NCBI GenBank assembly: GCA_016935915.1
Contig: JAFGQB010000024.1
Location: 1 to 40,758, forward strand
DNA: 40,758 nt
DNA from: Spirochaetota bacterium
Lineage (GTDB): Bacteria > Spirochaetota > GWE2-31-10 > JAFGQB01
Reading direction: 5' to 3'
The translations under genes were made by a program, and so were the position numbers. Shown piece by piece: positions 23,486 to 40,758 of this stretch; positions within the stretch are counted from its first letter, which is position 1; each line of letters opens with the position of its first letter. The notes under the pieces were generated by a model that saw only the letters and a program-made list of their open reading frames with translations, searched no databases and had not been told where the DNA came from.

Positions 23486-24604
23486 TTAAATTCTATTTAG
23501 CAGTCTTAAAAATGTTTTGACGTTTTTTTCTAGATCCCTGCCTTCAGCATAAAGGCTGCCGCCGACCAGATAGATCACATCATTTTCATAAAGATCGATC
23601 ATCTCCTTGATGTTCTTTTTTTTTATGCCGCCGCCTGGCATGGGGAAAATAGTTTTCATATTATAAAAGTCATCAGTGCATGATGAAGCGATTTCTCTGC
23701 ACTGCTTTTTTGTAAATCCGAACCGTCCGTTAAAGTTGGGATAAATGACTGCATCGGCACCGGAGAGTCTCTGGAGTTTTGCAAATAAAAGTCCATGTGA
23801 AAAACCCGAATTACTGTTTAAAATATAAGGTCCGAGAAGGGACGGATGTGTGATAACCGGCAGATCTATCTCTTCGTTTTGTGATATTGATCTTATAATG
23901 TCAAAACCTGTTAAGCCCGGCGAGATCATCACTCCTTTTGCTCCCCATTTTTGTGCAAAAGTCAATCTTTTAAAAATTTCATCAAAGGGACCAGTTATAT
24001 TGGGAACATAGATCGTTTTATGTCCTGTTTTCAGGTTTGCCTTTTCCACTGCTACAGCACATGATTTAACCCTGTCATTGAAAGGACAGTATAACTGATC
24101 TGTCAATCCGTGATCATCTTTTACAATGTCGATTCCGCCCAGAGCAAAACTGTAAGCAATCTCTGCAAGTTCTTTTACAGATTTTCCCATGGGCTTTAAT
24201 GCTGCAGCTAAAAGCGGCTTATCTTTTATGCCGATTAAGCTTCTGATTCCGCTTGCACCGAATTTGGGGCCTTTGAATTTTGATACAAGAGCAGGGCTTA
24301 ATTTAAAATCCATTACTTTAATGTTTTTTTTTATGCTTGTGTTCCCGAACATTACATTTAAAAATTGAGTAAGTTCATAAGAGGAGTTTTCAGAAGGGTA
24401 GCTTATAGAAGCCTGATAAACATCTTCATTGATTCTGTTGAAATCCGTTATTTTACCGACAATATTATCCTTTATGAACCTGTCTGTTATCAGCTCTTCA
24501 TCCAGTTCAACTGTCTGTTCATAGCAAATTGTTTTTGCAATGGCATAGGATTTCTTTTTATCCGCTTTTATCCGATAGACAACATCAAACCTTTCATCGG
24601 TCAT
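23486..24604 (-). CDS. RuBisCO-like protein (form IV), probable 3-oxo-isoapionate-type decarboxylase or enolase
   Basis: 372 aa of the RuBisCO large-subunit superfamily: N-terminal alpha/beta domain (~1-115), then a TIM barrel. The barrel motif ALKPMGKS gives Lys137 (RuBisCO Lys175), with Met139 where RuBisCO has Lys177. GGIDIVKDDHGL gives Lys162-Asp163-Asp164-His165, so the carbamate Lys and metal Asp are kept but Glu204 is His. His253 is in ITHPSLLG, and PMPGGGI and VGGS supply phosphate-binding glycines. These changes exclude CO2 fixation. Its start overlaps the transketolase C-subunit stop (ATGA) with GGAGG upstream. RLPs beside split transketolases are known in D-apiose catabolism (OiaC/OiaX), the likeliest role; the methionine-salvage enolase is an alternative. 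Confidence 0.85.
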   Translation of the reverse strand: MTDERFDVVYRIKADKKKSYAIAKTICYEQTVELDEELITDRFIKDNIVGKITDFNRINEDVYQASISYPSENSSYELTQFLNVMFGNTSIKKNIKVMDFKLSPALVSKFKGPKFGASGIRSLIGIKDKPLLAAALKPMGKSVKELAEIAYSFALGGIDIVKDDHGLTDQLYCPFNDRVKSCAVAVEKANLKTGHKTIYVPNITGPFDEIFKRLTFAQKWGAKGVMISPGLTGFDIIRSISQNEEIDLPVITHPSLLGPYILNSNSGFSHGLLFAKLQRLSGADAVIYPNFNGRFGFTKKQCREIASSCTDDFYNMKTIFPMPGGGIKKKNIKEMIDLYENDVIYLVGGSLYAEGRDLEKNVKTFLRLLNRI

Positions 24605-25602
24605 AGATCCTCCGGGTTCGAGTTTACAGTCATATCATTTATCTCGACATTGTCTATATCTTCATTGTCGATGTTCGTGCTTATGTCAAGCAGTTTTTCG
24701 CAGGCTTTCACTATTGCCATAGTATTGATTTGGTATTCATTCATCAGATATTTTAAACTGGCTCCGTGTGCAAAAGTGTCTTTTAATCCCAGTCTTATTA
24801 ATGGAAGATTAATATTTTCTTCTGCAATTATCTCAGAAACTATTGAACCCAAACCGCCTATGATCGTATGGTTTTCTACTGTTATGATTCCGCTTCTTAT
24901 GTTTTTTAATTCTTCCAGAAGCTGTTTTTTATTGAACGGTTTTAAAGTTGATACATGAAGCGAAGTTATTTTAATTCCGAAGTCATTTAAAACTTTAACA
25001 GCTTTCATTGCTTCTTCAGTTGTGATTCCTGATGATATTATTGCAATGTCTTCACCGGAGCTTAATTTTCTTATCTGGTTAAACTTGAAAGGTGTATTAA
25101 AAAGTCTTATTACATTTCCTCTTAAGACTCTAACATAGACAGGACCGTTTATTGAGTCTGCTGTTTCTAAAACTGTTTCAACCTCAGTTGCATCACCAGT
25201 TTCTAAAACAGTCATGTTCGGGATGCTTCTGAAGACAGCGATATCTTCTATTGCCTGATGCGTTATACCTCCTGGAGTCGTCAACCCGGGCAGAAAACCC
25301 ATCAACCTGACATTTCTGTTCGAATAAGCAATTGAACAGATTATCTGGTCAATTGCTCTTCTGTATAAAAAAACGGCAAAAGTGTGTATAAAGGGCTTAA
25401 ATCCCTCAAGCGCAAGTCCTCCGCATACGCTTATCATATTCTGTTCAGCCATTCCCATAGAGAAAAATCTGTCGGGATACTGATCCCTGAACTTGTCTAT
25501 CTCGCATGAACCGGTAAGGTCAGCTGAGATACACAAGACTTCAGGCTTATCCTTTGCAAAATCAATAAATGCCTTTGAATAGGGTTTTTCTTCATAATTC
25601 AT
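24601..25602 (-). CDS. Transketolase C-terminal (pyrimidine-binding) subunit; AptB-like candidate
   Basis: 333-aa half transketolase. The PYR domain has catalytic Glu53 in MGMAEQNM, which activates the thiamine diphosphate pyrimidine, and His115 in GGITHQAIED. A C-terminal domain (~180-310) closes with LGLKDTFAHGAS. The tail past ~310 is acidic (NIDNEDIDNVEIND). It partners with the subunit encoded 2 bp upstream (25605-26510) and shares an ATGA overlap with the RuBisCO-like gene, so the three proteins are made together. This supports a dedicated sugar-phosphate transketolase, such as apulose-4-phosphate transketolase, rather than the housekeeping enzyme. Confidence 0.9.
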   Translation of the reverse strand: MNYEEKPYSKAFIDFAKDKPEVLCISADLTGSCEIDKFRDQYPDRFFSMGMAEQNMISVCGGLALEGFKPFIHTFAVFLYRRAIDQIICSIAYSNRNVRLMGFLPGLTTPGGITHQAIEDIAVFRSIPNMTVLETGDATEVETVLETADSINGPVYVRVLRGNVIRLFNTPFKFNQIRKLSSGEDIAIISSGITTEEAMKAVKVLNDFGIKITSLHVSTLKPFNKKQLLEELKNIRSGIITVENHTIIGGLGSIVSEIIAEENINLPLIRLGLKDTFAHGASLKYLMNEYQINTMAIVKACEKLLDISTNIDNEDIDNVEINDMTVNSNPEDL

Positions 25603-25604
25603 CT

Positions 25605-26510
25605 TCAGTCCTCATACAGATCTTTTTTTATTTCTTTGATCAATTCGTTCTTTTCATGATCATCTTTAAATTTAATATAATGGAGCTTCGGACTGTATTT
25701 TTTTAAATAATACATTCCCCTGTAAGGTATTGTATTGCAGATTATCACCAGTCCGCTGTTTATCGGATTTACAGTGCAGGCATTGTTGATCTGTTCTATG
25801 TCATGCCCGTCAACATCTATAACCTGAAGTCCGAATGTTTTTATTTTTTCTGTTATAGGCTCTATTTTTAATACAGAGTCCATCTCCCCGTCGCATTGCT
25901 GACGGTTTTTGTCGATGATGATCTTTAAATTGTTCAGCTTGTAGTGGCTGATGAGATTAAAAGCTTCCCAAGTCTGCCCCTCCTGAAGCTCACCATCGGA
26001 TATAAACACCCACACCTTTCCGGTATCTTTTTTGAGCTTTCTTCCCAATGCAATGCCTGCTGCCTGGCTCAATCCCTGTCCCAGTGAACCTGTTGTCACC
26101 TCCATGCCAGGAGAATGTTCCGCTGCTATCATTTCAACGCTTGATCCATCCTTGTTGTAATGCGACAGGGCTTTTTCACTCATCCTTCCTGTTTCAATCA
26201 GAGCAGAATATACAATCAATGCATACTGGGCAGGGCTGATTATAAATCTGTCATAATAGCTGTTTTTTTCACCGTGATACAATGCTCCTGTAAAGCTTTT
26301 GGGATTATCTTTACCCGGGGTACCGGCAAATGAAAGAGGTATGGGAGGTCCTATACTGTCGCCTATGTTTAAGGCTTTAACATACAGAACCGATAAGATT
26401 TCCGCAGAGGAGCATGCCTGAGAGAGATATCCGCCATTATTCTTTATGGAATGCTCAAATACTTTTCTTCTGATGCCCAATGCAACTCTTCTTGCTTCCT
26501 CCTGCCACAT
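25605..26510 (-). CDS. Transketolase N-terminal (ThDP diphosphate-binding) subunit; AptA-like candidate
   Basis: 301-aa PP domain. The ThDP/metal motif is SDGELQEGQTWEA (Asp172) ending at DKNRQQCDG (Asn202), with Ser instead of the usual first Gly. TGSLGQGLSQAAGIALG (140-156) is the conserved cofactor loop. The early segment LSQACSSAEILSVLY and the phosphate-site region resemble other split transketolases. The ATG follows AGAGG. It is the first gene of the three-gene minus-strand operon. Its base composition is less AT-rich than the neighbouring kinase genes. Confidence 0.9.
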   Translation of the reverse strand: MWQEEARRVALGIRRKVFEHSIKNNGGYLSQACSSAEILSVLYVKALNIGDSIGPPIPLSFAGTPGKDNPKSFTGALYHGEKNSYYDRFIISPAQYALIVYSALIETGRMSEKALSHYNKDGSSVEMIAAEHSPGMEVTTGSLGQGLSQAAGIALGRKLKKDTGKVWVFISDGELQEGQTWEAFNLISHYKLNNLKIIIDKNRQQCDGEMDSVLKIEPITEKIKTFGLQVIDVDGHDIEQINNACTVNPINSGLVIICNTIPYRGMYYLKKYSPKLHYIKFKDDHEKNELIKEIKKDLYED

Positions 26511-38127: not shown

Positions 38128-39477
38128 TCAGTTTTGATTAAAAGCTTCATGAACTGCGAAGGTATCATTATAGCTTCTGAATTTAATAACTTTTTTATTA
38201 TCATCTATTTCCCAAGTATGAATATTTTCCGATCTGAAAGTTTTTCCGGTTTCAGTACATTCTCCTTCCTCCAATAAATGTACATCAACTTTATTACCTT
38301 CTTTAACATAAAAATGCTCTTCAATGTTTGTCATTCTTAAATTTGAATATTTTAACTTTTCCATGAAATTTCTGACACCTTCTTTCCCTTTATAATAACC
38401 CTGAATCGGCAAACCTTTTCCGCTTCCAGCCATAATCCAGACAACATCATCGCAGATATAATCCAACAGATCATTGATTTTATTATTTACAATTTCTTTA
38501 TTATCAGGGTGATCTAATATAATGCTTAACAGATATTCATACAATATTCTTGCAATCTCTATAGGTCCGCCGTATTTCTTTCTAATTATATGCAAAATTT
38601 CTTTTCTTTTTTTATGAGAAACCGGTATGGGTGCAGAAATGATTCCGATTCTCAAATTATTGTTGAAATTTTCCGGAATATTTGATTTATTTGAAATTAC
38701 AACTGCTTTAATTCCGATCTCTTCAATAGCCCGTACAATTGACTTGGTAGATCTGTCACCGAAACTGCTGCAGATGACCCATATCTCATCCAGTTTTTCC
38801 TGAATACCTTTTATCCTGATTTCTTCGAAAATACCCTGTCTCACCCAATGACAAATTGTTTTTTTATAATTATCCAATTTATTATCCGGATGAGGATATT
38901 TATTTTCTATATATTCAGCCATATCTTCCGCATCTTTCCATCTGTGAGCAGCATAGACCATTAAATATACAGGTTTGGAAATAATAATATCTTTTAATTT
39001 TTCCTGATAATTATCTGCCTGCACAATAATTATGTCTTTTGGATATATTGATTTATAGCAGTCATGCACCATATGATCTTCATCTATCATTAAAATACTT
39101 TGATAGGTATCGGTATTGACTTCGATCAGCTGATCTCTTAATTGACGAACCCATGGGCATGGTGCTTCTATCATAGGGATATTTCTACTTTTTAGTTCAT
39201 CCAGTTCTTTAATATTAGAATCATACCCTGTAATAAAAATGCCGTCACCAGAGGGTAATTCATTAATTGTGTTTATATAATTTACTTTAATTTCATTAAG
39301 CCACTCTTTATTTGCGCCTCTTGACTCATTTCTTATCCATTCCAAATTAATATGAAATTTTATGGCTTTTCCTTTATAAATAACCGGCTCTCTTAAATAT
39401 TTAGGGAACTTTGTAATTATTTCCTTTGTAATCCATTTACATGGTGCATCTTCTCTGAAAAAATAAAAATATGACAT
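38128..39477 (-). CDS. Divergent IspH-like [4Fe-4S] protein fused to a SnoaL-like domain
   Basis: 449 aa. Residues ~5-318 align by eye with 4-hydroxy-3-methylbut-2-enyl diphosphate reductase (IspH/LytB): APCKWITKEI (Cys13), PVIYKGKAIKFHIN (His42), KSRNIPMIEAPCPWV (Cys107), SILMIDEDHMV (His135), KKTICHWVRQ (Cys209), EIWVICSSFGDRSTKSI and the GIISAPIPVS end block. Cysteine spacing (94, 102) parallels E. coli IspH (84, 101). His74, catalytic Glu126 and the QTTLS Thr have no counterpart (Tyr85, Val137, YAAHRW), and the NSSNS substrate loop is changed. Residues ~322-445 are a SnoaL/NTF2-like fold (DDVVWIMAGSGKGLPIQGYYKGKEGV). AAGGAA precedes the ATG. It is probably an Fe-S enzyme with a new substrate. 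Confidence 0.75.
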   Translation of the reverse strand: MSYFYFFREDAPCKWITKEIITKFPKYLREPVIYKGKAIKFHINLEWIRNESRGANKEWLNEIKVNYINTINELPSGDGIFITGYDSNIKELDELKSRNIPMIEAPCPWVRQLRDQLIEVNTDTYQSILMIDEDHMVHDCYKSIYPKDIIIVQADNYQEKLKDIIISKPVYLMVYAAHRWKDAEDMAEYIENKYPHPDNKLDNYKKTICHWVRQGIFEEIRIKGIQEKLDEIWVICSSFGDRSTKSIVRAIEEIGIKAVVISNKSNIPENFNNNLRIGIISAPIPVSHKKRKEILHIIRKKYGGPIEIARILYEYLLSIILDHPDNKEIVNNKINDLLDYICDDVVWIMAGSGKGLPIQGYYKGKEGVRNFMEKLKYSNLRMTNIEEHFYVKEGNKVDVHLLEEGECTETGKTFRSENIHTWEIDDNKKVIKFRSYNDTFAVHEAFNQN

Positions 39478-40068: not shown

Positions 40069-40758
40069 TTACTGTATTGAAAATCCTCCATCAACAAACA
40101 ATGTATGACCGATAACAAAGGATGAGCAATCTGAACATAACCATAATGCCGCAGATGCTGCTTCTTCAGGTTTACCTATTCGTCCGATCGGATGGCAGGC
40201 TGCATAATAATCTTCAAGGTCCTTATTTCCCTTTGTGCTTCTGTAAAAAATATCTGTTTCAATTGACCCGGGAGCTATAGCATTTATTTTTATACCCATA
40301 TTTGCATATTCAAGTGCAGCTGATTTAGTAAGTCCGATAATCCCGTGTCTGCTTGTATTATATGCACTTCTATCTTTTCTGGCTATAATACCACAAACAG
40401 AAGCCATATTTACTATGGAACCGAAACCCTGTGTTAACATCTGCCTAATTTCATATTTCATTAATAAAAAAGTTCCCTTTAAATTTATATCTATGATTTC
40501 ATCCCATTCATTTTCTTCTAAATCTATAAGAGGAGATTTTTTACCGTCAATACCTGCATTATTGAATGCACAATCTATCCTGCCATATTTTTTTACGGTT
40601 TTATTTATTAAATCAATTACATCATCTTTTTTTGAAACATCGCATTGAATATATGCTGCTTCTTTGCCCTGTTTTTTTATCAATTCGACTGTTTCTTCAA
40701 GTTTATCCACTCTTCTACCTGATATCATTACTTTTGCTCCTTCATTTGCGAAAAGTAA
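40069..40758 (-). CDS. Short-chain dehydrogenase/reductase, 5' end outside the window
   Basis: The frame stays open to the right edge (LLFANEGAKVMISGRRVDKL), so the usual TGxxxGIG NAD(P) loop is beyond the window and the Met at 40728 is internal. Visible SDR landmarks: CDVSKKDDV, CAFNNAGIDG (N-N-A-G), NMASVCG (catalytic Ser region), AYNTSRHGIIGLTKSAALEY, INAIAPGSIETD and the end HTLFVDGG. The catalytic Y-x-x-x-K reads Y-N-T-S-R (AGA codon), an Arg for the normally invariant Lys. It is otherwise a classical fatty-acid-reductase-like SDR. Substrate is unknown. Confidence 0.9.
   Translation of the reverse strand, partial: LLFANEGAKVMISGRRVDKLEETVELIKKQGKEAAYIQCDVSKKDDVIDLINKTVKKYGRIDCAFNNAGIDGKKSPLIDLEENEWDEIIDINLKGTFLLMKYEIRQMLTQGFGSIVNMASVCGIIARKDRSAYNTSRHGIIGLTKSAALEYANMGIKINAIAPGSIETDIFYRSTKGNKDLEDYYAACHPIGRIGKPEEAASAALWLCSDCSSFVIGHTLFVDGGFSIQ

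Follow-up and report, generated by a model that had tools for sequence, protein, structure and literature searches.

The window, a contig of 40,758 nucleotides from a metagenome-assembled Spirochaetota genome, carries at its far end three genes on the same strand. A small STAS-like gene separates an SDR gene from a gene whose product joins an IspH-like domain to a SnoaL-like domain. The features are given below; rows are those of an alignment of the five IspH-like relatives with 21 ordinary IspHs.

38128..39477 (-): IspH-like::SnoaL-like fusion gene, 449 aa; one uninterrupted ORF with LYTB and SnoaL_2 matches
38572..39477 (-): IspH-like domain, residues 1 to ~302; matches by hhalign, AlphaFold, and PDB fold search
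39439..39441 (-): Cys13 codon, predicted [4Fe-4S] ligand; invariant in 26/26 rows
39157..39159 (-): Cys107 codon, predicted [4Fe-4S] ligand; invariant in 26/26 rows
39073..39075 (-): His135 codon, counterpart of E. coli IspH His124; invariant in 26/26 rows
38851..38853 (-): Cys209 codon, predicted [4Fe-4S] ligand; invariant in 26/26 rows
38770..38772 (-): Cys236 codon, a fourth Cys directly ahead of the lost SSN loop; conserved throughout the five relatives, with Gly in its place in ordinary IspH
38131..38571 (-): SnoaL/NTF2-like domain, residues ~303-449; SnoaL_2 at 24.4 bits, PDB entry 3grd, and a SnoaL protein of locus L004
39597..39950 (-): small STAS/SpoIIAA-like protein, 117 aa, upstream on the same strand; weak match to PF11964 (E 0.024, below the cut-off)
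40069..40758 (-): SDR oxidoreductase, truncated at its 5' end by the contig boundary; adh_short_C2, E 2e-59

The fusion ORF starts with an ATG at 39477, and AAGGAAA lies a few bases upstream of it. Elsewhere in the window, a RuBisCO-like large-chain gene (23486-26510, (-); PF00016, E 9e-28) immediately follows a transketolase that is split into two halves; this region may encode a sugar-phosphate or thiomethyl salvage route.

The N-terminal part of the fusion protein belongs to the IspH/LytB superfamily, as a divergent member. The Pfam LYTB model (PF02401) matched residues 56-282 with an E of 3.9e-15 and 56.3 bits, well over the cut-off of 24.5, and the four relatives scored between 29.6 and 44.6 bits. 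In a profile-profile comparison with 21 ordinary IspHs (hhalign; E 4.4e-16, 271 columns), C13, C107, and C209 fell on the three IspH cluster cysteines. A profile search of the PDB sequences returned IspH at E 1.3e-6. The score against the HMBPP-reductase model TIGR00216 was 46.5 bits, under the equivalog cut-off of 187.85. An AlphaFold model of residues 1-310, calculated with the 26-row alignment, had a pLDDT of 90.9 and a pTM of 0.87; an earlier model of all 449 aa, calculated with two sequences, had a pLDDT of 46 and was set aside. In a PDB fold search with the later model, 12/12 matches at E <0.001 were IspH (best E 1.8e-13; TM 0.55-0.77, the top value of 0.77 being to Plasmodium IspH), with the qualification that the model's IspH fold is not fully independent evidence, since ordinary IspHs were part of the alignment behind it. 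The kinship to IspH claimed in the original prediction was recovered by both profile and fold searches. Given the fold of IspH and the positions of Cys13, Cys107, and Cys209 in the alignment, these three residues would lie close together.

The closest relative is found in Spirochaetes bacterium GWB1_27_13 (locus L004; 49% identity, 319 aa) and has no SnoaL domain. It was retrieved from a collection of 84,980 species by a scan that reached close relatives only. When 393 Spirochaetota genomes were searched with a profile, three further relatives came up in another family (loci L023, L024, and L025), and no others at E 1e-12; order-wide and class-wide searches returned zero additional relatives. 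The IspH-like gene is present in 5 of the 393 genomes, which represent two lineages only. Searches of viral contigs, phages, and plasmids yielded nothing related to the IspH-like domain apart from one weak match to an ordinary phage ispH. The sequences form a real subfamily of IspH, conserved and divergent, which is fused to a SnoaL-like domain in the window genome.

The invariant columns of the 26-row alignment are C13, C107, H135 (H124 of IspH), C209, and G278, with no others; C13, C107, C209, H135, and C236 are invariant among the five IspH-like relatives. The three Cys had originally been recognized by their IspH-like spacing, and both the alignment and the profile-profile comparison place them at the cluster positions. 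The same prediction listed two conserved histidines. His135 is present in all 26 rows, whereas His42 lies off the column of IspH His41, is replaced by Tyr in all four relatives, and cannot be counted; the His41 column itself is without His in all five relatives. Counterparts of E. coli His74, Glu126, Thr167, and the NSSNS loop had been reported missing, and they are: the relatives have Tyr85 (5/5), Val137, and Ala or Ser at the three positions, respectively, and GDR, KDT, or NNR in place of the Ser-Ser-Asn loop. In IspH, His41, His74, and this loop line the diphosphate pocket, and Glu126 and Thr167 form the proton relay.

Exchange of E126 in E. coli IspH for Gln, Asp, or Ala reduces the activity to almost nil (PMC8837944). 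Because these mutants are nearly inactive, the window protein is unlikely to reduce HMBPP by the known route, and IspH-like chemistry in this family would need another proton source. The predicted [4Fe-4S] cluster would be of the open-site type, its apical iron being free. The retention of the Cys and of H124 in five divergent sequences, the loss of the diphosphate and proton-relay residues, and the presence of a separate ispH support the suggestion made at the outset that this is a cluster-bearing IspH relative with a changed substrate.

The separate ispH, which the original prediction had proposed to look for, is located on contig C234 of the same genome and scores 256.8 bits; the window gene is therefore not needed for isoprenoids. 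The assembly comprises 3.7 Mb in 310 contigs and is 78% complete. With the IspH/LytB HMBPP reductases (PF02401, TIGR00216), the window family shares the fold, the three cluster Cys, the His124 counterpart, and the overall order of domains. It differs from them in its low identity (12-18%), in having no counterparts of E126, T167, His41, His74, and SSN, in the additional invariant Cys236, and in its coexistence with an ordinary ispH; no link to MEP genes was seen. An IspH domain joined to a second domain is also found in the IspH-ribosomal protein S1 fusions (NF000907), but these are full HMBPP reductases, unlike the window protein, which scores 33.7 bits against their cut-off of 624.

The C-terminal part of the protein starts right after the last IspH helix, with no spacer. 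Its match to SnoaL_2 (PF12680) is weak (24.4 bits, E 4.6e-5; cut-off 27). The gain of a SnoaL-like domain, as originally claimed, is supported by the best PDB match of this part, the NTF2-like 3grd (E 3.8e-7), and by the SnoaL protein at L004:13051-14082 (E 3.2e-32). The resemblance to SnoaL_2/NTF2-like proteins extends over the C-terminal 110 residues. The window protein has a single such domain fused to the IspH-like domain; the neighbors in L004 are double. The fusion matters less than had been thought: it occurs in one of the five family members, whereas the other four are stand-alone proteins, the nearest of them encoded next to SnoaL genes. The SnoaL fusion is a local variation of the subfamily.

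The original prediction missed the surroundings of the gene, in which an AfsA-like gene, a giant kinase, and an SDR suggest a pathway. The IspH-like gene and an adjoining AfsA hotdog gene (PF03756, E 9e-17 to 1e-19) are divergently oriented in L023, L024, and L025, and a gene for a giant PknB-AAA_16-GAF protein, a sensor kinase, lies downstream of the former; in L023 and L025, the giant proteins also carry PAS-histidine kinase-receiver parts. The order in L004 is a giant kinase (SpoIIE type), the IspH-like gene, an SDR, a double SnoaL, an FMN reductase, and two more SnoaL genes; afsA is on another contig of that genome. An SDR of a generic type is found beside the IspH-like gene in 3/5 loci: adjacent in L004 and in L023, where it sits between the IspH-like gene and the giant kinase, and one small gene away in the window. 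In a BLASTP comparison, the window SDR was 62% identical over 219 aa to the SDR directly behind the L004 IspH-like gene. In four loci, a giant kinase gene lies near the IspH-like gene. The window's genome yielded a single giant kinase; its gene and afsA, which opens contig C180, are divergent neighbors. No end overlap was detected between C180 and the window contig, C175. By their orientations, the genes on C175 and C180 could make up an afsA-SDR-STAS-ispH::snoaL operon running away from the kinase gene, if the two contigs are indeed adjacent. The giant kinase of the window's genome ends in SpoIIE and HATPase domains; together with the STAS-like protein, itself a weak family match, this could hint at partner switching.

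AfsA (PF03756, over the cut-off) occurs in 15 of the 393 Spirochaetota genomes, and all five genomes with the IspH-like gene are among them. The hypergeometric P of 3.9e-8 for this co-occurrence is inflated by the relatedness of the genomes, so the counts within groups matter more. Of the 46 genomes in one order, 3 have AfsA, and precisely these 3 have the IspH-like gene; in the window's class, the same holds for 2 of 9. The association between the IspH-like and the AfsA-like gene is strong. The five AfsA proteins linked to IspH do not group in one supported clade of the AfsA tree (two changes), so a single origin is not shown.

Locus-specific HAD genes of two families lie beside afsA in 8 of the 10 AfsA genomes that have no IspH-like gene, in contrast to 0/5 of the IspH-like genomes (Fisher P 0.007). 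Most of these eight loci contain a giant kinase and some an SDR. The other two IspH-less genomes, G202 and G252, have neither a HAD nor an IspH-like gene beside afsA; an SDR and a chemoreceptor-like gene are found there. The HAD-B family is missing from all five IspH-like genomes, and one weak HAD-A-like match in the window's genome lies away from afsA. Convergent with afsA in L024 is a gene (L024:6030-7181) for a 383-aa protein that has no Pfam match and in which HAD-like motifs were noted by eye. The AfsA loci of the ten further Spirochaetota genomes and of G004 (L045-L055) are recurring islands with giant PknB-AAA-GAF kinases, HAD, SDR, and STAS/chemoreceptor genes. Taken together, the Spirochaetota AfsA islands look like an apparently undescribed signalling system.

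AfsA is the Streptomyces enzyme behind hormone-like signals. In the known pathway, it couples a beta-ketoacyl chain with a phosphate derived from glycerol, and the product is a ring with a C=C-CH2-O-phosphate group. HMBPP has this allylic C-O grouping too, and there IspH cleaves it by reduction. Based on the shared grouping, we propose that the IspH-like protein would carry out a two-electron reduction on the product of the AfsA-like enzyme. The most likely step would be the reductive removal of the allylic oxygen or phosphate, and the alternative would be reduction of the ring C=C, the role of BprA. The SDR would reduce the side-chain ketone, and the product would be sensed by the giant kinase or would elicit a response from it. 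Because SnoaL is an aldol cyclase of polyketides, the SnoaL-like part, which is fused in the window protein alone, may assist in closing the ring by an aldol reaction; or it may keep the substrate in place.

The Streptomyces route begins with the condensation, by AfsA, of a glycerol derivative and a derivative of a fatty acid. The ring C=C is reduced by BprA/GblC, the phosphate is stripped off by a phosphatase, and reduction of the ketone falls to an SDR (PMC5735094); sabA (AfsA), sabP (phosphatase), and sabD (dehydrogenase) lead to butenolides (PMC6930871). The spirochaete loci resemble these AfsA/ScbA/BarX pathways (afsA-bprA-SDR; sabA-sabP-sabD) in combining an AfsA-like hotdog protein with an SDR and, in the sister loci, with phosphatase-like HAD genes. 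They differ in having a giant kinase, not an ArpA-type receptor, and an IspH-like protein where the sister loci have HAD. The AfsA-like proteins are also far under the ScbA/BarX cut-off: against the equivalog NF041195 they score 42-47 bits (cut-off 200) and match in the second hotdog repeat only. Given this partial match, a butenolide is no more than a putative product. Nothing useful came from searching the PDB with the AfsA-like protein.

Very likely, the window protein is a non-MEP [4Fe-4S] enzyme functionally tied to the AfsA-like gene. Our best overall reading, held with moderate confidence, is that it is an IspH-superfamily [4Fe-4S] reductase outside the MEP pathway, acting in an AfsA-type (butenolide/butyrolactone-like) signal pathway. 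Weighing against it are the distant match of the AfsA-like proteins to ScbA/BarX, the location of afsA and the IspH-like gene on separate contigs in two genomes, the restriction of the five genomes to two lineages, the two AfsA genomes with neither a HAD nor the IspH-like gene, and the HAD-like gene convergent with afsA in L024. We tentatively go further and suggest a new branch of IspH in spirochaete hormone-like signalling, in which the open-site cluster would remove the allylic oxygen or phosphate of an AfsA-derived butenolide, or reduce its ring C=C, in place of the Streptomyces phosphatase or BprA reductase, with the giant PknB-AAA-GAF kinase as receptor or output. That the allylic C-O step, drawn by analogy to HMBPP, would be the exact reaction is somewhat doubtful.

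Two readings would make the gene a relic or an error, and we consider both highly improbable. The LYTB match and the three Cys are what a second, degraded HMBPP reductase would retain. This candidate was rejected because a new set of residues is kept in all five sequences; this set is conserved across lineages and exhibits no decay, while E126, T167, H74, His41, and SSN are missing from every relative, the score lies far below the HMBPP-reductase cut-off, and an ordinary ispH is present in the genome. The fusion could also be an assembly or sequencing artefact that merged two adjacent genes, given that it is known from one MAG, that the four relatives are all unfused, and that SnoaL genes are neighbors in L004. 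There is, however, no intergenic remnant, and the first SnoaL helix (IEIARILYEYLL) abuts the last IspH helix without a start of its own.

Two further readings accept the protein as functional, and each is unlikely to about the same degree. It may be a redox or small-molecule sensor, through whose non-catalytic cluster the neighboring giant kinase learns of oxygen, the redox state, or the AfsA-derived signal, with the SnoaL/NTF2-like part as the ligand-binding module. NTF2-like domains often merely bind ligands, a giant PknB-AAA-GAF kinase is near the gene in four loci, and the known proton-relay residues are all lost except His124, all of which would suit a sensor. On the other hand, the invariance of His124 and of the new Cys236 in an otherwise divergent family looks more like an active site, an SDR is beside the gene in three of the five loci, and giant kinases adjoin AfsA in many genomes that have no IspH-like gene. 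The protein may instead reduce some other substrate (for example, a quinone, an acyl chain, or a sugar acid), the AfsA neighborhood reflecting joint regulation and not a shared pathway. Just three of the five genes are directly beside afsA, and the AfsA-like proteins are distant from ScbA/BarX, as this explanation would allow; the exact match in occurrence across 5 of the 393 genomes, and also inside each of two separate groups, argues against it.

To our knowledge, the established roles of IspH-superfamily enzymes all lie in isoprenoid synthesis; a literature text search for papers naming AfsA and IspH together returned nothing relevant. The link to AfsA-like genes is a more interesting result than the SnoaL fusion. 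A divergent IspH subfamily tied to AfsA and with an intact cluster site would extend a rare organometallic chemistry to signal molecules, and it would point to apparently undescribed hormone-like signalling in spirochaetes.

Two genes encode possible electron donors for an Fe-S reductase. Directly behind the giant kinase of the window's genome is a gene for a DUF362 and two-cluster ferredoxin protein (L029:7241-8401), and the FMN reductase in the IspH-like cluster of L004 (L004:11011-11859) contains a Fer4-like Cys motif.
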